Origin: a bacterium
Lineage (GTDB): Bacteria > UBP15 > UBA6099
Assembly: GCA_029564595.1 (NCBI GenBank)
Contig: JAKQPS010000025.1
Coordinates: 1 to 62,980, forward strand
Length of the DNA stretch: 62,980 bases
Direction of reading: 5' to 3'
The translations under genes were made by a program, and so were the position numbers. Within the stretch, counting starts at the first letter, position 1, and each line of letters starts with the position of its first letter. This document shows positions 17,739-30,047 of this stretch, piece by piece. Under the pieces are notes generated by a model. It saw only the letters and a program-made list of their open reading frames with translations, was not told the origin of the DNA and ran no database searches.

Positions 17739-18929
17739 TTAGATTTTTGATAGCGCGCGGTCTAGGTCGCGGACAAGGTCGCGGACGTCTTCGAGTCCGA
17801 CGGAGAGCCGGATTAGATTGTCCGTGATGCCGAGACGTTTTCTTCTTTCTTCATCGACAGTGATATGGGTCATTGTGGCGGGATGCTCTATTAGCGTGCA
17901 AGCGTCGCCGAGGCTGACCGCCACGTTGCAGACTTTAACATTGGCGAGCAGCTTTGAAGCGGCCTCGTACCCGCCCTTCAGCCAGAAAGCTATCATGCCG
18001 GAGTAATCGGACATTGTTTTCTTCGCCACATCATGTTGCGGATGGCTTTTGAGGCCGGGATAATTCACTTTCAAAATTTTGGGATGGTTTTCGAGGAATT
18101 TGGCGACTTCCAAAGCGTTCGAGCAATGCCTGTCCATGCGGACGTGGAGAGTGCGCATTCCCCGCCAAGAAAAGAAAGCGTGCAACGGACTCATCGAACC
18201 GCCGAGAACGAGCATATAGTTGTCGACAGCCGCGACCAGTTCGGCTCCTCCCGCGACATAGCCGCCGAGCGCGTCGTCGTGTCCGCTGATGTATTTAGTC
18301 GAACTGGAGGCGACGAGGTCCGCCCCAAGCTCAAGCGGGCGCATGAGATAAGGCGACGCCCATGTGCTGTCCACAACCGTGACGCAGCCGGAAGCGCGCG
18401 CGAGTTTCGCCGCCGCCGGAATATCTATTATCTCGACCATCGGGTTTGCCGGAGTCTCTATGAAAAGGACTTTGGCGGGCCGTGAGAGCGCATTTTTCAT
18501 CTTTGCGGGATCCGTCAAATCCGTCATATCGACCTCTATGCCGAGGCCCGGAAGATACTGTCCGAAAAGCGTGTCGGACGCGCTGTACATCTTGCTGTGA
18601 GCGACCACTCTGTCGCCCGCTCTCAAAAGAGAGAGCAAGGCGGTTGAAATTGCGGCCATGCCGCTGGCGAAAGCGACGGCGCGCTCGCCCCCTTCAAGTT
18701 CCGCGATTTTCTCTTCGAACATTGCGTTCGTGGGATTGCCCGTTCTGGTGTAGAAGTACCGCCCTCCCCCGCCGAGCATCTGTTCGGAGCCGGCCTCCAT
18801 GAAATCTTCAAGCGAGTCGTAAACGTAAGTCGTGCTCTGGTAGATCGGTGGATTGACCGGTCTTGGCTCCCGCGACGAAGATTTCCATCCGGATACGACG
18901 CGGCTGCCGAATCTTAGCTTGGAGTCCAT
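17739..18929 (-). CDS. Trans-sulfuration family PLP enzyme
   Basis: A 396-residue Cys/Met metabolism PLP-dependent enzyme (cystathionine gamma-synthase, cystathionine lyase, methionine gamma-lyase and O-acetylhomoserine sulfhydrylase family). Visible are VNPPIYQSTTYVYDS at the N-terminus, YTRTGNPT (phosphate and PLP contact), ASGMAAI, and the PLP lysine in SSSTKYISGHDD. The C-terminus SVGLEDVRDLVRDLDRAL is standard. Which reaction it catalyses cannot be fixed by eye. It follows the corrinoid methyltransferase operon on the same strand but is separated from it by about 300 bases containing repeats. Confidence 0.92.
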   Translation of the reverse strand: MDSKLRFGSRVVSGWKSSSREPRPVNPPIYQSTTYVYDSLEDFMEAGSEQMLGGGGRYFYTRTGNPTNAMFEEKIAELEGGERAVAFASGMAAISTALLSLLRAGDRVVAHSKMYSASDTLFGQYLPGLGIEVDMTDLTDPAKMKNALSRPAKVLFIETPANPMVEIIDIPAAAKLARASGCVTVVDSTWASPYLMRPLELGADLVASSSTKYISGHDDALGGYVAGGAELVAAVDNYMLVLGGSMSPLHAFFSWRGMRTLHVRMDRHCSNALEVAKFLENHPKILKVNYPGLKSHPQHDVAKKTMSDYSGMIAFWLKGGYEAASKLLANVKVCNVAVSLGDACTLIEHPATMTHITVDEERRKRLGITDNLIRLSVGLEDVRDLVRDLDRALSKI

Positions 18930-18994
18930 TGGGGCGTCCTTTCTTTACAGAAAAATATTGCTTCCGCGCAAAGCGAGTTTTTTGCATGGCGCAT

Positions 18995-19080
18995 TTGTTG
19001 AAAATGGGTTCCCGCTTTCGCGGGAATGACGGCAAAAAAATAAAAAAGAATGACGGCAAAAAAATAAAAAGGAATGACGG
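18995..19080 (+). repeat. dRS3-like hairpin repeat plus short tandem units
   Basis: 18995-19035 holds a hairpin unit, TTCCCGC-tttc-GCGGGAA, flanked by TTGTTGAAAATGGG and TGACGGCAAAAA. It runs into direct repeats of 24 bases beginning GAATGACGGCAAAAAAATA (19024-19047, 19048-19071, then a partial third). The same hairpin with the same flanks appears inverted at 29371-29411 and 29511-29552, so this is an interspersed family. Confidence 0.85.
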
Positions 19081-19228
19081 CATGGAGAAAATAACGACGG
19101 GAGAAAGAAGTGATTAGTGACTGTGGGAAAAGCAAATTCCACTCCATGCAATAGTATCGGATTCAATGAACAAAGCGTCGAATCCGGGTTTATCGGTCGA
19201 AGGCTGGACGAAAAACTCGTCTCAAGTA

Positions 19229-19864
19229 TCAGCTTGCCAACAGGCTTTTGACGAGGTCGACGGCTTCGCCCGCGTCTTCGCCGTAACCGTCAGCCCCTAT
19301 CTCTTTGGCGAAATCGGCGGAAACGGGAGCGCCGCCGACTATTATCTTCAGCGAATCCCTCAGTCCGGCGTCTTTCAGCGCGGACACGGTGTCTCTCATA
19401 AACGCCATAGTAGTCGTCAACAGCGCGGACATCCCGACCACGTTGGGTTTAATCTCTCTGACCATATCGACGAATCTCTCCGGAGGAGCGTCCACGCCGG
19501 CGTCGTGAACTTCGTAGCCGTTGCCCTGCAGCAGGGCTATAACGATGTTTTTGCCGATGTCGTGGATGTCGCCTTTCACCGAGCCGATGAGGACGCGGCC
19601 CTTAGGCTCGTAACCGGAATCTTTCAGTTTCGGCGAGACCGCCGCAAACCCGTCTTTGAAGGCTTTAGCGCTCATCATTACCTCGGGCAGAAACACCTCG
19701 TCGTTCTTGAATTTCACGCCGACGATTTCAATGCCGGAGATGAGGCCGCCCGCGACGATTTCCATCGGGGCAATTCCTTCCGCCAGAGCCGATTGCGTCA
19801 GTTCTACCGTAAGTTCCGGCTCCATCTCGATAATCGAATTCTTGATTTTTTCCAACAGCGACAT
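19229..19864 (-). CDS. Corrinoid (B12-binding) methyltransferase protein, MttC/MtbC type
   Basis: A 211-residue cognate corrinoid protein. Residues 1-85 form the helical cap (B12-binding 2 type). The cobalamin-binding domain has the lower-ligand motif D-x-H-x-x-G at GDIHDIGKN (His101), VVGMSALLTTTM and a closing IIVGGAPVS. It carries the methyl group as methyl-Co(III) after demethylation of a substrate by an MttB-type enzyme. It is the last gene of the TetR-headed operon, 58 bases behind the second mttB-like gene. No reductive activase (RamA-type) is present nearby. Confidence 0.93.
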   Translation of the reverse strand: MSLLEKIKNSIIEMEPELTVELTQSALAEGIAPMEIVAGGLISGIEIVGVKFKNDEVFLPEVMMSAKAFKDGFAAVSPKLKDSGYEPKGRVLIGSVKGDIHDIGKNIVIALLQGNGYEVHDAGVDAPPERFVDMVREIKPNVVGMSALLTTTMAFMRDTVSALKDAGLRDSLKIIVGGAPVSADFAKEIGADGYGEDAGEAVDLVKSLLAS

Positions 19865-19922
19865 TATGAGACCTCCAGATTTTTATTCATTAATAAACGA
19901 CTATCCGCGACAGGCGGGAGTC

Positions 19923-21326
19923 TTATTGCAGACCTGCGGCTTTCACTCTTCGCGACACGATCCTGTCGATCTCAGCCGCGACATCTTCAGAGACCTGAAG
20001 TTCGAGACTGTTTTCTGTAAGAATCTTTTCGACCCGCTCGCGCGCCCTCTGCTCGATAGGTTTGGGTTCCGACCAGTATTTGTCGAAGGTGTCCTGAGTG
20101 AAGACGCCCGGCTGCCAGAAATCGCGCGCGTGCCGCATGGTATGTTTTTCCATCAGGTAGTTGCCGCCGATTCCGACCTTTTCAATGACATCGAGCGCGA
20201 GAGTGTCGTCGTTGACGAGGATGCCCTCTGAGAGGACTCTGAGCATGCCGCCCATTTCGTTTTCGACCACGAGCGATTCGAGGCAAAAACCTTCGCCGCC
20301 GCCGATTTCGCCGCGCATGCCGATGCTTTCGGAGCCGGCCGCCCAGAGGAGCATCATGCTCAGACCGCGGTCCCATCCGCTCTGAAAATCCATGCAGTTG
20401 GAATCTGTCAGGCCGGATGTGCAGCCGGACATGAAACCGAGGTGATGAGCGCAGGCGACCAGAGCGAGATGAATGAGTGATAGTTCCGGCGCGGCGTAGA
20501 GGCATCTGCCGGTGCGCATGTCGCTGGTCTGCATCGGCCCGCCGAGCGCCATCGGAGAGTTCGAGCCTAAACAATAAAGATAGACGAGGCCCGCGAGATT
20601 TTCGGCCATCTGCAGAGCCACCGACCCCGCGAGAGTCGCCGGGCCGGTCGTTCCCACCTGCACCATCGGCCCCATGTTTATCGGCTGATCCAGTTCGCCG
20701 TACACTTTCATTATTTCCAGCGAATGCTTGGAAAGCTTCAGAGGGCTGACCGGTTCGGCAAGATAGTTGATCATGCGCGAGCCGCGAAGCTCGTCCTCGC
20801 CGCCAGTCACCGCTTTCGCCATCTCGACCAGATCGTGAGCCGATTCTATGGTGTACGTCCACGTCGTTACTATCTTCTCGGAATACTTGAACAGCAACTC
20901 CGCCATGTAGATGTCGGATATCTCGATAGGCACATCCTGAGGAACCACGCCGGTCGACGACACGGATATGTTTTCGAGGTGGTTGACCAGATTTATAACG
21001 TTCCGGCAATCGTTGAGAGTTCCCGCGCGCTTGGTTTTCGTTTCGAAATCGATGATGTTCATGCCGATCCACGGAGCCCAGAAAATCTTCGGATAGTCCT
21101 GCGGAGACGCGAGCGGTTTCATATTGGCGACGGCTTCGAGAGTTAGCGAGCGCGGGACGCAGGCGATTTGTTTCGCCATGTCAACCTTGCAGCCGCGTTT
21201 CTCAAGAAGTTCCAACGCCCAGTCCCATTCATATTTGAACCCGACTTCCTCCAGTATCCTGTAAGAAGTGTCGAGAATCCTTTCGATTTCCTGAGTTGAA
21301 ACGACGTCGAGTTTATTGAAAATCAT
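19923..21326 (-). CDS. MttB-family (non-pyrrolysine) corrinoid methyltransferase, copy 2
   Basis: A 467-residue TIM-barrel methyltransferase of the trimethylamine methyltransferase superfamily. The frame is continuous and contains no in-frame amber codon, so it belongs to the non-pyrrolysine branch whose known members demethylate glycine betaine, proline betaine, carnitine or gamma-butyrobetaine. Landmarks are ILEEVGFKYE, RAGTLNDCRNVINLVNHLENI, GPATLAGSVALQMAENLAG and NDDTLALDVIEKVGIGGNYL. I start at the ATG at 21326, one base after the previous stop; an upstream start would add 19 residues inside the neighbouring gene. About 470 residues is the usual length. Confidence 0.92.
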   Translation of the reverse strand: MIFNKLDVVSTQEIERILDTSYRILEEVGFKYEWDWALELLEKRGCKVDMAKQIACVPRSLTLEAVANMKPLASPQDYPKIFWAPWIGMNIIDFETKTKRAGTLNDCRNVINLVNHLENISVSSTGVVPQDVPIEISDIYMAELLFKYSEKIVTTWTYTIESAHDLVEMAKAVTGGEDELRGSRMINYLAEPVSPLKLSKHSLEIMKVYGELDQPINMGPMVQVGTTGPATLAGSVALQMAENLAGLVYLYCLGSNSPMALGGPMQTSDMRTGRCLYAAPELSLIHLALVACAHHLGFMSGCTSGLTDSNCMDFQSGWDRGLSMMLLWAAGSESIGMRGEIGGGEGFCLESLVVENEMGGMLRVLSEGILVNDDTLALDVIEKVGIGGNYLMEKHTMRHARDFWQPGVFTQDTFDKYWSEPKPIEQRARERVEKILTENSLELQVSEDVAAEIDRIVSRRVKAAGLQ

Positions 21327-21327
21327 G

Positions 21328-22737
21328 TCAGCAGGCTCCCTTCTCGGCGACGGCCGCGACTCTTCGCGCGACAATATCGTCAATCGCCTTGGCTTGGTCT
21401 TCAGGTATCTGCAGCGAAAGCTCTTTCGAGGAAAGGATTTCGTTCACTTTGTCGTGGGCGTGGGCGATAATGCGCATTCCGCCGCTCTTGGCCCAATGCT
21501 CGAAGCTGACTCTCTGGAAAATGGAGGGCCGCCATGCGTCCCTCGCGTGAGCCATAGTGTGTTTCTCGCCGAGGAAGTTGCCTCCCGGCCCGACGCTCTT
21601 AATCACATCCAGCGCCAGAGTGTCGTCGTTCACCAGAACGCCCTCGCCCACCTTGCTGAGCATGCCGAGCGCCTCGTTGTCCAGCACAAGCTGCTCCATA
21701 GAAAAACCGTCGAAGAGGAATCCGGCCTGACCGAACATGTCGCATCCTGCCGCCCAGCACATCACGCCCGACAGCGCCTTTTCCCAGCCGTTCTGCATGT
21801 CAAAGTCGCAGGAATCCGTCTCGAAGCTGGTGTTCCCGCTGCAGTATCCGAAATAGCGGATTATCTGGTGCGCGCCGAGGAACATAAGGGTTTGTTCCGG
21901 AGAAGCGTACAACTGCCTCCCGGTGCGCATCTGCATCACCTGAGTCAACGCGCCGAGAGCCACTTCAGTTTTCGTCCGGAGAGACCTGACCCAGACCAGC
22001 CCGGCGAGCAACTCGGCGGCGCACAACACGAGGCATCCGGCGGGAGTTGCCGGAGACACGCTTCCCGCCTGCGTCATTGACGCGACGGCTATCGGCAAAT
22101 CCCTTTCTGCGTACATGCGGGATATCGCTAGCTGTTTCGGCGGAAACCTCAATGGAGAAACCGAATTGAGCATGTAGCTGAGGAACTTCGAGCCGCGCAG
22201 TTCCTCCGAGCCTCCCGTTATAACTTCCGCCATCTCCATTACGACAGGCACGTTTTCCGTCTCATAAATCCATTGGTTGAAAAGTTTCTCGGAATATTTC
22301 ATGAGCAGGCCGATATTAAAAACTTCGACCGCCTGCACGGGCACGTCGGACGAGACGATTCCCGCCGAAGCGAGAGTGATGTTGTCCAGCGAGTTGCACA
22401 GCTTAATCACGTTGCGCGCGTCCTCGGTCGTGCCCGGTCTCATCTTCTTCGTTTTGCAGTCGAGAATCATTCCCTTGTTGGCGCTGGCCACGCGAACTTT
22501 GGGAAGGTCGTCCGGCGGCGTCACCGACGGCACGTTGTCCAGCGCGTCGAAAATCACATCCTCGCTGAACTTTACGACCATCGTCGAGCGGTCAACGTCG
22601 CAACCGGCGGACTCCAGCTCGTCCATACACTTCTCGTCCTCGAACCGGCAGCCCGTCGTTCTCAGTATCCGGAACGCTCCCTCGACTATCTTTACCACTT
22701 CGTCGTCCGATAGAACCTTAAGTTTTCTGAATATCAT
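21328..22737 (-). CDS. MttB-family (non-pyrrolysine) corrinoid methyltransferase, copy 1
   Basis: A 469-residue paralogue of the following gene, sharing the same landmarks (ILRTTGCRFEDE, RPGTTEDARNVIKLCNSLDNI, NDDTLALDVIKSVGPGGNFLGEKHTMAHAR). The two are clearly diverged, so this is an old tandem duplication and they may act on different substrates or form a hetero-oligomer. No in-frame amber codon is present. It lies 18 bases behind the SCP2 fusion gene and one base before copy 2, so all are translated from one transcript. Confidence 0.92.
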   Translation of the reverse strand: MIFRKLKVLSDDEVVKIVEGAFRILRTTGCRFEDEKCMDELESAGCDVDRSTMVVKFSEDVIFDALDNVPSVTPPDDLPKVRVASANKGMILDCKTKKMRPGTTEDARNVIKLCNSLDNITLASAGIVSSDVPVQAVEVFNIGLLMKYSEKLFNQWIYETENVPVVMEMAEVITGGSEELRGSKFLSYMLNSVSPLRFPPKQLAISRMYAERDLPIAVASMTQAGSVSPATPAGCLVLCAAELLAGLVWVRSLRTKTEVALGALTQVMQMRTGRQLYASPEQTLMFLGAHQIIRYFGYCSGNTSFETDSCDFDMQNGWEKALSGVMCWAAGCDMFGQAGFLFDGFSMEQLVLDNEALGMLSKVGEGVLVNDDTLALDVIKSVGPGGNFLGEKHTMAHARDAWRPSIFQRVSFEHWAKSGGMRIIAHAHDKVNEILSSKELSLQIPEDQAKAIDDIVARRVAAVAEKGAC

Positions 22738-22755
22738 TTTCGCCTCCCAGTGCGG

Positions 22756-24420
22756 TCAAGCGGAAAGTTCTTCTTCATAATCGACATCCATCCCGCCAAG
22801 CCCAACCATATCCACTCCTAGAGATATCTTGTGTCTGCCCGGAGTTATCCCCCCGGCGCGTTTCACCCTGATTGTCAACTCGTCTCCGAAAGAGACCGAT
22901 AACGGGGCCTTGTCGGACACTTCGGAAGCGGCTACCTTACGCGAGCCTTTCGTAATTTCTATCAAATCAAGACCGAAAGATTCTCCGTCCACTTTCACAT
23001 CCGTGAATCCGATGACAGTGGCAACCCCAAGCTTGTTTTTCAGTTTCACCTCAAAACCGGCGACCTCGCCGTCAGCAACAAAATTTTTGAAACTCCCGGG
23101 AACGACTAAGCGTTTGACAAGGTAGCCCGACACCGAACTGCGGGACATTTCTATTACTGCGGTTTCGATGACGGAAGAGATGCGGTCCCTGAGCCTGTCC
23201 TGCAGTGATTTTGCCGGAGCGGCGGAAGCCGCGGATTTCTTTGCGACCGGAGCGGCCGCGCGCGGTTTGGCGGCTTTCGGCTCTTCTTCCGCTTCCTCCC
23301 GCCCGAATGAAAGCATCCTTCTCATTTCCTTATCGAGCGCGTCCCATACGAGTTCTATCCTGTTTAAGGATTTTTCATAGAAAAATTTCATGCCGAACGC
23401 GCCGAGAGCTTTGTCCAGCCCCTTGAGAACCTCGTCGAACACAGAGAAAGCCGCGCCGAGCGCCTGCTCCAGAATCCCGCCTTCAATGCTTTCGGGAACC
23501 GAATCGAATTCAACTCCGTCCGACGCCGCCCTGTAGCCTCTGAATATCGCGGTTATCAGCTTGTCCATCCCGCGCAGTTTCAAAAGAGGAATCCCTTCGA
23601 GCTTGATGTCCCCTCTGGCATACGCGATTCCGGCGTTCAGTTTGCCGTGCGCCATGTCGTGGAAAGCCGTCTTGGTGGTCTTGATTACCAGAACGGAACC
23701 GCCGGCCGCTGCGCCTTCGACGAATTCCGCGCGGCCGTCGGATGTCAATTTCACAGAATATTTCTCGTCCGCGTCTTTCATATCAAGAACAATGGCGTCG
23801 AGAGTTTTCGCGCACTCGGCCAGAGACGCGGCTCCGATATGCCCAGCGGCCATTTCCACCGTCCGGCGCAACAGTTCGGAGTAAGAGCCGCCCTCCCCAG
23901 CCGATTCGGCGGCGGCGGTTTTCTTTTTCACCCTCGGAGCCGCCGCGCCGTCGCCTGTCAGCTTGTCCTTATATTTCGCTTGCACAAGACCCAGCCCGAC
24001 CATCTTCAAAGCAAGCTCGATATCGTGCTCGCCGGACTCCAGTCCCTGCGCGTCCTGTACAGTTATCGTCAGTTCGTCGCCGAAAGAAACTCCCAGAGGA
24101 AGAGTCTCAGACAACTCAGCCGCGCAATAAGATTTTCTGTTCTTTTCTATCGTTATCACGCCCGGATCGAAAGTCTCTCCGTCGATTTTCAAAGGGTCGC
24201 AACCCACGATGGTCGCCACGCCCAGCCTGTTTTTTACTTTCACCCTGAAACCGGTCGTCGCGCCGGCAGCGTCTTTCACATTTGTAAAAGAGCCCTCCTG
24301 AATAAGCCTTTTCACTAGATAGCCTGAGACCGCCTGAGTCGAAACACTTTCAGCCGCCTGTGTGACAGCCTCCGCAAGCCTCGACCTCAGCCTTTCTTCC
24401 AACGACTGCGCCATTGTCAT
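22756..24420 (-). CDS. SCP2 lipid-binding domain flanked by duplicated beta-sandwich domains
   Basis: A 554-residue protein with an unusual three-part plan. Residues about 5-154 and 405-551 are two copies of one domain (shared VSGYLVKRL, GSFxNF/V, KNxLGVAT, VSFGDELTI, GxHxISL/DIEL). Between them, residues about 183-295 look like a sterol carrier protein 2 domain (DEKYSVKLTSDGR, IKTTKTAFHDMAHGKLNAGIAYARGD, LLKLRGM). An Ala/Lys/Glu-rich linker (372-404) precedes the second copy. The duplicated domain resembles, by my reading, the small DUF6379/C-glycoside deglycosidase beta-subunit fold, which partners larger catalytic subunits. No signal peptide. It is the first structural gene after tetR and probably binds a hydrophobic substrate for the methyltransferases. 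Function is inferred. Confidence 0.75.
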   Translation of the reverse strand: MTMAQSLEERLRSRLAEAVTQAAESVSTQAVSGYLVKRLIQEGSFTNVKDAAGATTGFRVKVKNRLGVATIVGCDPLKIDGETFDPGVITIEKNRKSYCAAELSETLPLGVSFGDELTITVQDAQGLESGEHDIELALKMVGLGLVQAKYKDKLTGDGAAAPRVKKKTAAAESAGEGGSYSELLRRTVEMAAGHIGAASLAECAKTLDAIVLDMKDADEKYSVKLTSDGRAEFVEGAAAGGSVLVIKTTKTAFHDMAHGKLNAGIAYARGDIKLEGIPLLKLRGMDKLITAIFRGYRAASDGVEFDSVPESIEGGILEQALGAAFSVFDEVLKGLDKALGAFGMKFFYEKSLNRIELVWDALDKEMRRMLSFGREEAEEEPKAAKPRAAAPVAKKSAASAAPAKSLQDRLRDRISSVIETAVIEMSRSSVSGYLVKRLVVPGSFKNFVADGEVAGFEVKLKNKLGVATVIGFTDVKVDGESFGLDLIEITKGSRKVAASEVSDKAPLSVSFGDELTIRVKRAGGITPGRHKISLGVDMVGLGGMDVDYEEELSA

Positions 24421-24458
24421 ATCCTCCCTAGACGGACTCCCGATCCACGCCGCTCCCG

Positions 24459-25184
24459 CTAACTTCTCGGATCCGGCGTCGGACGTATCCCTCTGTTCTG
24501 CATTTCTGATATCTCTTTTATCACATGTTCGACATCGACATCTTCGACTCTGTCTATCAGTTCAAACACCACGCTCTCTATCATCCCCACCAACGCCACC
24601 CCTGCTATGCGCGCGTCCATCTCCCTTACCGCTCCGAGTTTCATGCCTAAAAGAAGCGCAAACTCTGCCTGCCTGTATAAATAATTATGGAATTCTTTTA
24701 TAAGCAACCTGATTTCCGGGTCGGGATTGTTCGTTTCATTCCTGATTATCTGACCGAGACAGGTGTTTTTCCTGAGCAAGTCCGCTACATTTCGCGAAAA
24801 CACCAGAGCCATATCGGCGCTCGTATCCGTTGTGGCGGCCCAATTTGCGACAAGTTTCTTCATTGCGTCAAAAAAACTATTCAGCAATTCGACAAGCGCC
24901 GTTTTCTTGTCTTTAAAGTGATAGTAAAAAGTGCCCTGCGCGACTCCCACCTCGCGCACGATATCGGACACGTTGGCTTTGTCGTAACCTTTCTGGGAAA
25001 AAACAATCAGCGCGGCGTCCAGTATTCTTTTTCTAGTCAACTCCTTCTTCGATAACTTCCCGGCGATCTCCGCTATTTCATTTTTCGCTTTTTTGCTTAG
25101 GGAAATGGAAGATACCGGGATATCCGACGATGATGCAAAAGCATCCTGTGAAATATTTTTCAAGTTTGTCTGTTTCACAATCAA
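24459..25184 (-). CDS. TetR-family transcriptional regulator
   Basis: A 241-residue regulator. Residues about 46-100 form the TetR DNA-binding domain (RKRILDAALIVFSQKGYDKANVSDIVREVGVAQGTFYYHF). The remaining all-helical region is the ligand-binding and dimer domain. The 40-residue N-terminal extension is longer than usual and Ser/Lys-rich. Translation probably starts at a TTG (25184) or a GTG six bases on, both behind a GGAGG. A perfect palindrome (25199-25214) sits over the start site of its own promoter, so it most likely represses itself and the downstream SCP2/MttB/corrinoid genes until a ligand binds. The gap to the next gene is 38 bases. Confidence 0.93.
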   Translation of the reverse strand: MIVKQTNLKNISQDAFASSSDIPVSSISLSKKAKNEIAEIAGKLSKKELTRKRILDAALIVFSQKGYDKANVSDIVREVGVAQGTFYYHFKDKKTALVELLNSFFDAMKKLVANWAATTDTSADMALVFSRNVADLLRKNTCLGQIIRNETNNPDPEIRLLIKEFHNYLYRQAEFALLLGMKLGAVREMDARIAGVALVGMIESVVFELIDRVEDVDVEHVIKEISEMQNRGIRPTPDPRS

Positions 25185-25198
25185 TGCGCCTCCAAACC

Positions 25199-25214
25199 GA
25201 CTGACTAGTCAGTC
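25199..25214. promoter_or_regulatory. TetR operator palindrome
   Basis: GACTGACTAGTCAGTC is a perfect 16-base palindrome directly downstream of the tetR -10 box, covering the expected transcription start and ending 14 bases before the start codon. Its form is typical of TetR-family operators. Confidence 0.8.
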
Positions 25215-25215
25215 A

Positions 25216-25245
25216 ATATTACCGCGACTCTCCTTCGATTGTCAA
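25216..25245 (-). promoter_or_regulatory. Promoter of the tetR-SCP2-mttB-corrinoid operon
   Basis: On the minus strand a consensus TTGACA (25245-25240) and TAATAT (25221-25216) are spaced by 18 bases, one base upstream of the operator palindrome. This is one of the best sigma-70 promoters in the window. Confidence 0.8.
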
Positions 25246-25341
25246 TACGATTTCTCGCTTTTTTGGCCTGAACATATCCGATAAATCCGTTTTGAAGCGC
25301 ATTATATCTTTGACAGCTCGTTCGTATCCGGTATTTCGCGC

Positions 25342-25370
25342 TTGATTTAGGGTTGGTTTGCAGATAGAAT
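25342..25370 (+). promoter_or_regulatory. Divergent promoter for the START-like gene
   Basis: TTGATT (25342-25347) and TAGAAT (25365-25370) are 17 bases apart and face the gene at 25407. A GGAGAGG ribosome-binding site follows. The promoter lies about 130 bases from the TetR operator, so control by that repressor is possible but not shown. Confidence 0.45.
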
Positions 25371-25406
25371 CAATGACAACTAAACAGTGTCCGGAGAGGC
25401 TCTTTT

Positions 25407-25916
25407 ATGAAATTAGGAATGACCCACGAGTACGACCACCCGCTCGATCTGGTATTAAAAGTTACGCATTACGACATCATCGAAAACCCGTCCATATACG
25501 AGGATATGCCGAATGTGACGAGCATAAAAAGGTCTCACTTCACGCAGCATCCGGATGGAAGACAGGATATCGAGTACACATATTGTGCGCACGGACAAAT
25601 CCCGAAGATAGCGCAGAAGATACTGACGCCGGACATGCTTTCATGGCGGGAAGTAAGCCGCTGGGACCCTTCTTCGCTTGTTTATCATTATGAAATCATC
25701 CCCTTTCACCTGCGAAACGTGTTTCACTGCAAAGGGAAATGGACGTATGCCGCGAAGAACGGCCGAGTGTTTCAGACGCTGGACGGAACCGTAAACGTGA
25801 AACTACCGCTTATAGGGCCGATAATCGAACAGCGCATCGCCGAGGAACTGTATAAGAACCAGAAAGACATGTACAAGGTGAACCTCAAGAAACTGGCGGG
25901 GATGTCCAAGAGCTAA
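25407..25916 (+). CDS. DUF2505/START-like lipid-binding-fold protein
   Basis: A 169-residue cytoplasmic protein. The pattern of an early helix and EYDHPLDLV, KVTHYDIIENP, a run of antiparallel strands (SHFTQHPDGRQDIEYTY, SLVYHYEIIPF, GTVNVKLPLIGPIIEQ) and a long C-terminal helix with Lys/Glu is that of the START/Bet v1-like superfamily, closest in feel to DUF2505. Members bind hydrophobic ligands in a cavity. Its position, divergent from a TetR operon that encodes an SCP2 protein, suggests both handle the same lipid-like compound. The family assignment is by pattern only. Confidence 0.65.
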   Translation: MKLGMTHEYDHPLDLVLKVTHYDIIENPSIYEDMPNVTSIKRSHFTQHPDGRQDIEYTYCAHGQIPKIAQKILTPDMLSWREVSRWDPSSLVYHYEIIPFHLRNVFHCKGKWTYAAKNGRVFQTLDGTVNVKLPLIGPIIEQRIAEELYKNQKDMYKVNLKKLAGMSKS

Positions 25917-26098: not shown

Positions 26099-27460
26099 AT
26101 GAATCCTCTTAAAATCGGAATAACCGGAGTAAGAGGCGTGGTCGGGGAAACCTTCACGCCTCATCTTGTCGCGCAGTTTGCCGAAGCGTTCGCCACGTGC
26201 GTCGGCCGGGGAAAAGTTTATATCTGCGACGACGCGCGGCGATCAGGCTCGATGGCTCGCGGGGCGGCGATATCCGGGCTTCTTGCCGCCGGTTGCAAAA
26301 CATACGACTTGGGCGTATGCCCCATACCTTCCATGCAAAGGACTATCGCGGCTTCCGGCGCGGTCGGCGGAATAGCCGTTTCAGCCGGCCATAACTCGGA
26401 GGACTGGAACGCTCTGAAGTTCATCCGCGCCGACGGGTTCTACTTCAACGCGCGGGAGGCGGACGAACTGCTGGACGTGTACCACGCCGGGGAGTTCGAA
26501 AGAGCGGGATGGGACAAGATAGTTCCTCTTGAAAAGACAGGCTCTAGCGGGGCCGTATCTGAACATATCGCGGCGATAGTCGGCATGACGGATGTCCGGC
26601 GCATAAAAAAAGCCGGATTGAAAGTGGCCGTCGACACCTGCAACGGGGCATGCTCGGAGGCGGCGTCAGAACTGCTTGACGCTCTCGGTTGCAAAACGGT
26701 CGCGATAAACGCGGAGCCGGGAGAGCCTTTCCCGCACGACCCCGAACCCAACGCGGCCAATATGCGGCAGACACGGTCGATCGTTAGGGCGGTTGGCTGC
26801 GACGCGGGCTTCATGCTCGACACCGCCGGAGAAAGACTCGGCATTGTTACGGATGATGGAACCATCCTTCCGGAAGACTACACGCTCGCTTTATGCGTTT
26901 CGATATGGCTTTCAAGCAATCCCGGCGGGTTGGTCGTCACTAATCTGTCAACCACCGGAGCGATAGACGCAGTGGCTAAAAAGCACAAAGCGTCGGTGAT
27001 GAGAACCCGCATCGGGCAGGCGTACGTCGCGGAGGCGGCAGCCAAACACAAGGCGGCCATAGCGGGCGAAGGCAGCGGCGGGGTCATATTCCCCCGGCTC
27101 CATTACGCTTGCGACGGCATGGCGGCGATGGCTTTCATACTGGATTTCATCGCAAGGACAGGCTCGACGGTATCGGCGGCCGCGGCTGCGATTCCGAAGT
27201 TCGTGACTCTGAAAAAAAACGCGCAACTGGATTTTTCGGTGATTCACCGAGCGATTCACCACGCAAGAACAGAAGCTAAAACAAGATATTCAAACGCGAA
27301 CGTTGACCTGTCGGACGGAGTGAAGCTTGGCTGGGCGAACTCATGGCTGCACATCAGGCCGTCCAACACCGAGCCGATAATCCGGGTCATGGCCGAAGCG
27401 AGGTCGGAAAAGCGGGCGCGGGAGCTTATTGCCATCGGAGAGGAGCTTATCGGGGGATGA
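26099..27460 (+). CDS. Degenerate phosphohexomutase (probable pseudoenzyme)
   Basis: A 453-residue alpha-D-phosphohexomutase homologue (GlmM, PMM/PGM family) keeping all four domains: KIGITGVRGVVGE at the start, GEGSGGVIFP sugar loop and the C-terminal phosphate loop RPSNTEPIIRV. The catalytic parts are lost. The phosphoserine loop, normally TASHNP, reads SAGHNS with Gly97 in place of the serine. The metal loop, normally DxDxDR, reads DTAGER (241-246), leaving one of three aspartates. The reading frame is intact and selection seems maintained. It overlaps an intact paralogue by four bases, so a regulatory or structural role beside that enzyme is the likely explanation. Confidence 0.85.
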   Translation: MNPLKIGITGVRGVVGETFTPHLVAQFAEAFATCVGRGKVYICDDARRSGSMARGAAISGLLAAGCKTYDLGVCPIPSMQRTIAASGAVGGIAVSAGHNSEDWNALKFIRADGFYFNAREADELLDVYHAGEFERAGWDKIVPLEKTGSSGAVSEHIAAIVGMTDVRRIKKAGLKVAVDTCNGACSEAASELLDALGCKTVAINAEPGEPFPHDPEPNAANMRQTRSIVRAVGCDAGFMLDTAGERLGIVTDDGTILPEDYTLALCVSIWLSSNPGGLVVTNLSTTGAIDAVAKKHKASVMRTRIGQAYVAEAAAKHKAAIAGEGSGGVIFPRLHYACDGMAAMAFILDFIARTGSTVSAAAAAIPKFVTLKKNAQLDFSVIHRAIHHARTEAKTRYSNANVDLSDGVKLGWANSWLHIRPSNTEPIIRVMAEARSEKRARELIAIGEELIGG

Positions 27461-28827
27461 AGGGCGTGCGCTCTCTTAAGATAAGCATTTCCGGCGTGCG
27501 GGGCGTCGTCGGCGAGTCTTTGACTCCGGGACTGCTCGTGCGTTTCGCGGAAAGTTTCGGCACATACGTCGGCGGCGGCAAGGTGGTCGTAGGGCGCGAC
27601 ACCCGCACGAGCGGCGAAATGGCGCAGCACGCCGCGCTGGCCGGCCTCACATCCGCGGGCTGCCAAGCCGTTCTGGTAGACATAAGCCCTGTCCCGACCA
27701 TACAGCTTGCCGTTCGTCAACTCCGAGCCGCCGGAGGCATTGCCATTACCGCAAGCCACAATCCCGCCGAATGGAACGCTTTCAAATTCATCCGGGAAGA
27801 CGGTTGTTTCCTGAATTCATTTCAGGCGCGCGAACTGCTCGACATCTACCATCAGGGAGACTACGCGAAAGCGCGCAGCGACGCGATGAAAGAGCCGAAA
27901 ACGCACAGGCGCGCCGTTGAAAAACATATAGACGCGATTATGAACAGTTTCGGGCCTCTGCCCGTTTCGCGCCGCCGGCCGGTCAAAGTCGTGGTGGACT
28001 GCGTCAACGGCGCAGGCTCCGTTATGTCTCCTTTCCTGCTCAAGAAACTCGGTTGCGATGTCGTGGCGATTAACGCGACGCCTGACGGGATATTCCCGCG
28101 CCCGCCCGAGCCTTTGCCTGAAAATCTCGCGATGCTTTCGGATGCCGTGCTTAAACACAAAGCCGACATAGGATTCGCTCAGGACGCGGACGCGGACAGG
28201 CTGGCCATCGTATCCGAACTGGGCGCGCCTATCGGCGAAGATTACACTCTCGGCGTGGCGGTCGACCACATACTGTCAAAAACGGCGGGGACGGTTGTGA
28301 CGACGCTTGCCACTTCAAGCGCCGTTGACGATATCGCTATCGCGCGCGGATGCAGGGTCGTCAAAAGCATGATCGGGGAGATAAACGTCACCGAGACCAT
28401 GAAATCCGAGAACGCCGTCATCGGCGGCGAGGGCAACGGCGGAGTGATATACCCCGAAGTGAATTTCGCGCGAGACAGCTTTGTCGGGATGGCTATAGCG
28501 CTTCATTATTTTGCTGGGAAAAAGGGGCCTGTCTCCGAAGTTGTGGCCGCCCTGCCCCGCTATCACATGGCGAAAACGGCGACGCCATGCCCTGCGGGCA
28601 AAGCCCTCGAAGTCCTTGAGTTGCTCATCGAAAAAAACAAAAACCGAAAGATTGATTTAACCGAAGGCATCAAAATCAGCGACGGAAAAAAATGGACGCT
28701 CGTGCGGCCCTCTAACACCGAGCCGATTATGAGGATTATTTCCGAAGCTCCCACGGCGGACGAAGCGCGCCGCCTGAACGAAAAACTCGTCTCCCAAGTC
28801 AACAATTTTATAAACGGCAACGACTGA
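27457..28827 (+). CDS. Phosphoglucosamine/phosphomannomutase (GlmM-like)
   Basis: A 456-residue active member of the phosphohexomutase family. The phosphoserine loop ITASHNPAEWN (Ser100), metal loop QDADADRLA, sugar loop GEGNGGVIYPE and phosphate loop RPSNTEPIMRI are all intact. It interconverts sugar 1- and 6-phosphates, feeding cell-wall or LPS nucleotide sugars; glucosamine, mannose and glucose phosphates are all possible substrates. The ATG at 27457 overlaps the stop of the degenerate copy (ATGA), and the N-terminal ISISGVRGVVGES matches that copy closely, indicating tandem duplication. Confidence 0.9.
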   Translation: MKGVRSLKISISGVRGVVGESLTPGLLVRFAESFGTYVGGGKVVVGRDTRTSGEMAQHAALAGLTSAGCQAVLVDISPVPTIQLAVRQLRAAGGIAITASHNPAEWNAFKFIREDGCFLNSFQARELLDIYHQGDYAKARSDAMKEPKTHRRAVEKHIDAIMNSFGPLPVSRRRPVKVVVDCVNGAGSVMSPFLLKKLGCDVVAINATPDGIFPRPPEPLPENLAMLSDAVLKHKADIGFAQDADADRLAIVSELGAPIGEDYTLGVAVDHILSKTAGTVVTTLATSSAVDDIAIARGCRVVKSMIGEINVTETMKSENAVIGGEGNGGVIYPEVNFARDSFVGMAIALHYFAGKKGPVSEVVAALPRYHMAKTATPCPAGKALEVLELLIEKNKNRKIDLTEGIKISDGKKWTLVRPSNTEPIMRIISEAPTADEARRLNEKLVSQVNNFINGND

Positions 28828-29086: not shown

Positions 29087-29253
29087 AGTTGAATCTCCTA
29101 CCTTGTATATGATTTTATTTGTGGCACATACAGGCTTTTGATTAGATAATTAGTCAAACATCTGTGCGCCATGCAAAGAAAAAAACATTGCGCACATCAC
29201 AAAAATGCCTTCATTCCTTATTTCTCCACAGCTTTTGTTCCATTTTCTCCGTG

Positions 29254-29411
29254 CCGTCATTCCTTTTTCTTCTTTTTGCCGTCATTCCTTTTTCTTCCTT
29301 GCCGTCATTCCTTTTTCTTCCTTGCCGTCATTCCTTTTTCTTCCTTGCCGTCATTCCTTTTTCTTCCTTGCCGTCATTCCCGCGAAAGCGGGAACCCATT
29401 TTCAACAACCC
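29254..29411. repeat. 23-base minisatellite ending in a dRS3-like hairpin
   Basis: One 25-base unit (29254-29278) and four perfect 23-base units CCGTCATTCCTTTTTCTTCC-TTG (29279-29370) are followed at 29371-29411 by the hairpin repeat with GTCATTCCCGCGAAAGCGGG and ACCCATTTTCAACAAC. It is the inverted, expanded counterpart of the array at 18995-19080. ORFs across it are low-complexity artefacts. Confidence 0.9.
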
Positions 29412-29510
29412 TCCCGCGTTAACATCTTTTAACTTCATAGCCTTCATTCCTTTTTCTTTTTGCCGTCATTCAATATTCTTCTTCACCCTCATTCCTTTTT
29501 CTTCTTTTTG

Positions 29511-29552
29511 CCGTCATTCCCGCGAAAGCGGGAACCCATTTTCAACAACCCT
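29511..29552. repeat. Second dRS3-like hairpin copy
   Basis: Identical hairpin unit (CCGTCATTCCCGCGAAAGCG onwards, ending TTTTCAACAACCC) about 140 bases after the first, separated by degenerate CATTCCTTTTTC units. Confidence 0.9.
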
Positions 29553-30047
29553 TCCGCTCAGAATCATCGACTCTAACTCGCGCACATACGTAACGGCGCG
29601 CTTTCTCGTTCTTGCCGCATGTTTCTTGTGACTCATCCTTTCTTCGTTTCAGCCGACGTTGTTGGAAAATGCGCGATAAAAAAGCTGCTTTTTCATTGTC
29701 TGTTTCTATTAGAAGCTGTCAAAATAGTCGCCACATTATTGAATTATCATTAAAAAGAAGCTATATACATATCCCAATGGAGATGTTAAAAATTGAAAAA
29801 TTGAACAGAATGTGGATAGGGAAACGTTCCCGCAAGAGCATCCTAGAATGCGCATTTCATGGCAACAGCAGCGGGATAACAAAGCGGTTCAATCGGGTTT
29901 TCCCTCGAATTACCAGCGAATACAATAGTTTCGCAGGCTCCACAGGAATATAGCGTCTGTAGTTCTTCCGGAAGCGGCAGCGTACGGAATAACAATCCGG
30001 CGCGAGTTTACGCGCGATGTATATGCGATGAAAACGATGTTGATGCC
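29553..30047. other. Intergenic region before prfC
   Basis: No supportable gene or RNA was found. A 113-codon open frame at 29612-29953 (+) has basic, low-quality composition and no ribosome-binding site. Confidence 0.4.

Follow-up and report, generated by a model that had tools for sequence, protein, structure and literature searches.

Genes of the MttB family are widespread, many of them without a known substrate, and to our knowledge every characterized member lacking pyrrolysine (Pyl) acts on a small quaternary amine. MttB folds as a TIM barrel, and the corrinoid of its partner, MttC, enters the barrel cavity (PMC9842639); small quaternary amines are the substrates given for the non-Pyl enzymes MtgB, MtcB, and MtyB (PMC8604678). 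The portion of the Ruegeria pomeroyi report considered here describes MtgBCDE as an aerobic system with glycine betaine as its substrate, in which a stand-alone corrinoid protein, MtgC, is common to betaine demethylation and methionine synthesis; that portion describes no SCP2 or CGDB partner (PMC12478193). Two further kinds of protein are relevant. In the C-glycoside deglycosidases (CGDs), the active site forms at the interface between a β-sandwich and a TIM barrel, and residues of the β-subunit contact the substrate (PMC8563793). UbiJ is an SCP2 scaffold of the Ubi metabolon for which a role with hydrophobic substrates has been proposed (PMC9499169).

We analyzed a contig of 62,980 nucleotides (the whole of this stretch is called the window), which is part of a 4.4-Mb draft genome (G000; 97% complete) of the candidate phylum UBP15. 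An earlier note on this DNA had placed tetR, an SCP2 fusion gene, two diverged non-Pyl mttB genes, and a corrinoid protein gene behind one promoter with short gaps between them. All of these were found where they had been located, on the minus strand, with gaps of 18 bp (fusion to mttB_A), 1 bp (mttB_A to mttB_B), and 58 bp (mttB_B to mttC). The operon content had been described only in part, however, since two CGDB domains, a PLP enzyme gene, and, in other genera, a homocysteine methyltransferase gene were overlooked; the operon extends downstream at least to 17739. The most likely start of tetR, as judged by comparison with sister genomes, is GTG 25178, and that of mttB_B is ATG 21326. An Rfam search of the window gave no match.

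Table 1. Features of the locus, in window coordinates, in the order of transcription from the shared promoter, followed by the divergent gene
Feature	Position	Strand	Remark
Promoter, -35 TTGACA and -10 TAATAT, 18-bp spacing	25245-25216	-	
18-bp palindromic operator TGACTGACTAGTCAGTCG, predicted	25215-25198	-	Abuts the promoter
tetR	24459..25178	-	TetR_N, Pfam E 1.2e-15
554-aa fusion gene	22756..24420	-	CGDB at both ends, SCP2 fold in the middle
mttB_A, non-Pyl MttB-superfamily methyltransferase (predicted)	21328..22737	-	Glu at the Pyl column
mttB_B, non-Pyl MttB-superfamily methyltransferase (predicted), sister paralogue of mttB_A	19923..21326	-	Leu at the Pyl column
mttC/mtgC-type corrinoid protein	19229..19864	-	DxHxxG...SxL...GG motif intact
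mttC-PLP spacer, 299 bp	18930..19228		With 24-nt repeats
PLP enzyme, methionine gamma-lyase/O-succinylhomoserine sulfhydrylase family	17739..18929	-	Last conserved gene
Divergent DUF2505 (START-like) gene, 169 aa	25407..25916	+	Probably not core

Two stretches on the far side of the divergent gene were also recorded. Two tandem phosphomannomutase/phosphoglucosamine-mutase-like genes (26099-28827; about 40% mutual identity) are found directly next to the locus in each of the four genomes of the genus, and short tandem repeats at 29171-29600 form repetitive coding frames.

The locus resembles the MttB-superfamily quaternary-amine systems (MtgB/MtgC, MtcB, and MtyB) in combining a non-Pyl MTTB protein, an MtgC-type corrinoid protein, and a RACo/RamA-type activator. 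Both mttB genes match MTTB (PF06253) over nearly the whole profile (Pfam E 1e-68 and 1.7e-77), and the genome has no further PF06253 copy. Neither frame contains an in-frame TAG, and the Pyl column holds the residues given in Table 1, in agreement with the non-Pyl assignment of the earlier note. MttC carries both B12-binding domains (Pfam E 2.7e-29 and 3.8e-18), and a RACo-type activator gene was present in 7/7 genomes, that of the window's genome being of the RACo/AcsV type. By their domain, the absence of UAG, the corrinoid partner, and the activator, the pair thus falls in the non-Pyl branch of the superfamily, methyl transfer itself being predicted from sequence. MttB_A can be aligned with MtgB over the full length (E 8e-47), and MttC is closest to MtgC models, scoring below their cut-offs (212 of 310 and 208 of 370). 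On the curated score and the transporters, the locus does not match the glycine betaine MtgB/MtgC system.

Four features set the locus apart from those systems: a tandem of paralogous MttB proteins in a clade of their own, a CGDB-SCP2-CGDB subunit, the absence of BCCT and OpuAC transporters, and, in the UBP15 operon, a homocysteine methyltransferase/PLP acceptor side. MttB_A and MttB_B are 43% identical and no more than about 31% identical to the other MttB proteins compared; they form sister clades whose split predates the genera, the joint clade being supported at 100/99 in a tree whose deeper part is unsure owing to long outgroup branches. Plasmid records held no relative of the fusion and only distant MttB proteins (about 30% identity), and a profile search of the MttB neighborhoods in six other genomes revealed no CGDB or SCP2 domain nearby.

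The fusion protein consists of a helix and CGDB domain (residues ~5-156), an SCP2 fold (~178-305), two long helices (316-378), and a second helix and CGDB domain (~404-554). CGDB (PF19906, C-glycoside deglycosidase β-subunit) scored 94.3 bits over the protein against a cut-off of 27.6 (E 5.4e-27). The two end units are 47% identical to each other, both are kept in 6/6 fusion homologues, and their match to the solved CGD β-subunits DfgB and DgpB extends from Pfam profile and sequence to the fold (Foldseek E 6e-8 to DfgB). The ends thus resemble the CGD β-subunits DgpB, DfgB, and AgCGD2 β by profile and fold, and the known proteins partner a TIM-barrel catalytic subunit, whereas the fusion has two CGDB copies in one chain with SCP2 between them. 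No CGD α-subunit (a sugar-isomerase-like TIM barrel) was recognized among the genes translated around the loci; the neighboring barrels are MttB.

The SCP2 domain claimed in the earlier note held up by fold and not by sequence score. The middle of the protein scored 13.2 bits against the PF02036 gathering cut-off of 21.3 (Pfam E=0.11), and a profile search of PDB sequences with it gave no SCP2 match. A model of this domain alone (137 aa; built from five sequences; pLDDT 80) matched Thermus SCP2 (Foldseek E 5.5e-6 to 9.1e-6) as well as UbiJ and the SCP2 domains of SdsA1-type alkylsulfatases, and its 38 PDB matches at E<=0.001 were all SCP2 proteins or SCP2-bearing alkylsulfatases. The model of the full-length fusion was poor outside the domains (pLDDT 58.5), but these still matched DfgB/DgpB and SCP2. 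The assignment of the middle to SCP2 is therefore well supported as a modeled fold, below threshold by sequence. UbiJ and the SdsA1-type alkylsulfatases share with the fusion an SCP2 fold in a protein serving enzymes with hydrophobic substrates, and UbiJ also has helices after this domain; the likeness is one of fold (8-21% identity), and the partners and chemistry differ. The hydrophobic moment of the two long helices exceeds that of most shuffles, which is weak evidence.

Other CGDB-like matches came from G000 (contig C131), G046, and G048. Those of G000 and G046 were rejected as relatives of the fusion, being proteins of 537 aa (L019:8147-9760) and 508 aa (L017:8740-10266) with the domain at the N terminus. 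Judging by PF25653, a family related to PF19906, they are probably HMG-CoA-reductase-like, a hint that the CGDB module has been put to use in many proteins. Beside the HMG-CoA-reductase-like gene of G046 lies a corrinoid-protein fragment (L017:7890-8387), 62% identical to the window's mttC product over 115 residues, and no MttB was recognized near it.

The earlier note had named co-occurrence of the fusion with MttB as a check on its proposal, and the proposal withstood it. The fusion adjoins the MttB pair in 6/6 genomes carrying it (G000 to G004 and G006; three genera of UBP15), and none was found apart from the pair among 386 genomes, no full-length relative being found in the other 380. A contig scan with two short patterns likewise found no fusion beyond the known loci. 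Gene order is kept across the three genera; in G001 and G004 two contigs share the locus, each of them ending inside the operon, and their ends fit together. Named, metagenome-assembled relatives of the locus are ADurb.Bin236, UBP15_UBA6099, USCA_metabat.19_sub, RA.bin91, and DeMMO6_30. Between sister genomes, dN/dS was lowest in the MttB genes and mttC (0.004-0.026), intermediate in the PLP gene (~0.05), and highest in the fusion (0.09-0.10), and this strong purifying selection (0.004-0.10) indicates that the conservation of the operon is not due to chance.

The promoter and palindrome recur upstream of tetR in 6/6 loci, the palindrome being imperfect in one (L015). The operator of the earlier note held up: the palindrome directly follows the -10 element, and at <=3 mismatches it is a single site in the 4.4-Mb genome. 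The best curated match of TetR is the Bacillus-type FadR (fatty-acid) regulator family (72 bits against a cut-off of 200), and the palindrome presumably resembles the FadR consensus. The START-like neighbor proposed in the earlier note is present as a divergent gene, but it offers weak support for a hydrophobic substrate. Its product matches DUF2505 (E 1.2e-8) and only very weakly Polyketide_cyc2 (START-like; Pfam), the divergent arrangement is limited to the genus, the locus of the two other genera lacks the gene, and the window's genome has DUF2505 paralogues elsewhere. We accordingly rejected the gene as a core part. G004 has a 4-kb stretch (L059:593-4366) that encodes a DUF2505 relative (32% identity), a transporter of the MFS type, and a second homocysteine S-methyltransferase.

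A PLP gene lies downstream of mttC in every locus readable there, at 94 bp in G001, G002, and G003 and 299 bp in the window. Part of the longer spacer consists of 24-nt GAATGACGGCAAAAAAATAAAAA-type repeats (18980-19095), an array present there in the window's genome only. The active site of methionine gamma-lyase (MGL) has a catalytic Cys and a Lys-Asp pair. The PLP protein scored 409 bits with the MGL model (cut-off, 549.7) and lacks the catalytic Cys, Lys, and Asp, with Ala at the Cys position and YML replacing LKD. Two genomes from a single unrelated family carry an MttB-family gene with an MGL-like PLP gene after it (L085:9508-12527 and L088:9396-12687), and the PLP products are 39-40% identical to that of the window; the MttB-PLP pairing thus recurs outside UBP15.

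In G004 and G006, belonging to the two other genera, a homocysteine S-methyltransferase gene (PF02574; GGCCG motif) sits between mttC and the PLP gene, and homocysteine is probably the methyl acceptor there because this gene lies inside the operon. Such a step gains credibility from Ruegeria, where MttB-type demethylation is linked to methionine synthesis; that system resembles the UBP15 operon in its MttB-family enzyme, stand-alone corrinoid protein, and homocysteine methyltransferase tied to methionine synthesis, and differs in being aerobic, in using glycine betaine, and in having its genes scattered over the genome (PMC12478193). Neither a PF02574 nor a PF01717 protein was found in the four genomes of the window's genus, one of which is 67% complete. 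The window's genome encodes a CODH/ACS cluster that includes an AcsE-type methyltransferase and a corrinoid Fe-S protein, as well as a second, stand-alone methyl-THF:corrinoid methyltransferase-type protein on contig C78. A separate MetX-MetW fusion lies beside MetY in the same genome, yet the four genomes of the genus showed no PF02574/PF01717 enzyme to methylate homocysteine. MetX gave a strong match in three genomes (G000, G001, and G003), and none of that strength was found in the others, the opposite of the PF02574 pattern, in drafts that are incomplete.

The explanation that we prefer, and offer tentatively, is that the locus is an inducible corrinoid-dependent MttB/MttC demethylation operon with a dedicated substrate-presenting subunit, in which CGDB would cap MttB and SCP2 would bind a hydrophobic or bulky methylated substrate. 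The domain make-up, gene content, gene order, conservation, and operator that it builds on are observed. TetR would keep its own operon repressed in the absence of a ligand, which is perhaps acyl or hydrophobic in nature. With two CGDB domains to two MttB barrels, the numbers suggest a cap for each barrel: each β-sandwich would pack on one barrel and complete its substrate pocket, as CGDB does with its CGD partner. The central SCP2 domain would hold the hydrophobic or bulky part of the substrate, whose nature this domain suggests, as proposed for UbiJ, and the helices may promote assembly or contact with the membrane, as also proposed for UbiJ (PMC9499169). MttB_A and MttB_B would each pass a methyl group to Co(I) of MttC, from two positions or two successive products, with the RACo-type activator keeping Co(I) reduced. 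In G004 and G006 the methyl group would go to homocysteine via the operon's own methyltransferase; in the window's genus, where the gene for that methyltransferase is missing, it would probably go to tetrahydrofolate via an AcsE/MtgA-type enzyme and on to the Wood-Ljungdahl pathway. With acceptors that change from genus to genus, the methyl group would have no single, fixed sink. The PLP enzyme is a candidate for supplying or consuming homocysteine or methionine.

Several points speak against this explanation. The CGDB-MttB contact is drawn by analogy only: we know of no kinship between MttB and the CGD α-subunit other than the shared barrel fold, MttB assembles into oligomers of its own, and the barrel mouth has to stay accessible to MttC as well. 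The low confidence of the full-length model outside its domains, the SCP2 score short of the Pfam cut-off, and the change of acceptor between genera also count against it. We regard a hydrophobic substrate as plausible; it is indirectly favored by SCP2, by CGDB, which helps to bind the aglycone in its known complexes, by the FadR-like TetR, and by the lack of BCCT/OpuAC. The alternative that both MttB proteins demethylate ordinary, soluble small quaternary amines or betaines, with the fusion as a mere structural scaffold, has behind it the substrates of MtgB, MtcB, and MtyB, the nearness of MttC to MtgC models, and a Leu at the Pyl column of MttB_B, as in MtgB. We consider it unlikely in view of the separate clade of the pair, its low identity to the other MttB proteins compared, and its strict linkage with the SCP2/CGDB protein. 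Moreover, no BCCT or OpuAC transporter was found in seven genomes in which control profiles matched, other betaine uptake families being possible, and no betaine genes were recognized beside the operon.

The acceptor-side genes could also be the core of the operon, which would then serve methionine biosynthesis by methylating homocysteine from an unusual donor; the PLP enzyme and homocysteine methyltransferase would stand at its center, and the MttB pair and the fusion would form its donor module. The PLP enzyme is always present where readable, no PF02574 protein besides that of the operon was found in G006, PF01717 is absent from 7/7 genomes, and the sharing of MtgC with methionine synthesis in Ruegeria is a precedent (PMC12478193). 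This too is unlikely, as the window's genus lacks the homocysteine methyltransferase with everything else kept, G000 has its separate MetXW-MetY locus for homocysteine, and the PLP enzyme lacks the key MGL residues. Most improbable among these alternatives is a detoxification rather than a nutritional module, in which the pair would demethylate a foreign hydrophobic compound, such as a methylated lipid or a methoxylated aromatic, that TetR senses. The autoregulated TetR with its single genomic site would suit this, as would the activity of CGDB relatives on plant polyphenol glycosides (PMC8563793), but nothing in the locus was recognized as an efflux pump or another gene for detoxification, and the homocysteine/PLP gene linkage points to one-carbon metabolism.

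The system is real and conserved; its MttB/MttC part is of a known kind, and its fusion protein is more unusual than the earlier note saw. In our literature search no paper brought MttB together with C-glycoside deglycosidase, and for MttB with SCP2 the ten best matches were all on SCP2, none naming MttB. It is rather doubtful, but conceivable, that this would be the first MttB-family system to demethylate a hydrophobic (lipid-, quinone-, or polyphenol-like) substrate, with active sites completed by CGDB, fed by SCP2, and passing methyl groups to homocysteine. The homocysteine methyltransferase, kept in two genera and missing in the third, offers a natural comparison of a methyl-acceptor swap. 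If the proposed capping is true, CGDB would be a subunit that can be reused to complete the active sites of TIM barrels, and the conserved partner with lipid-carrier and CGDB folds is a testable clue that the MttB superfamily may reach beyond small soluble amines.
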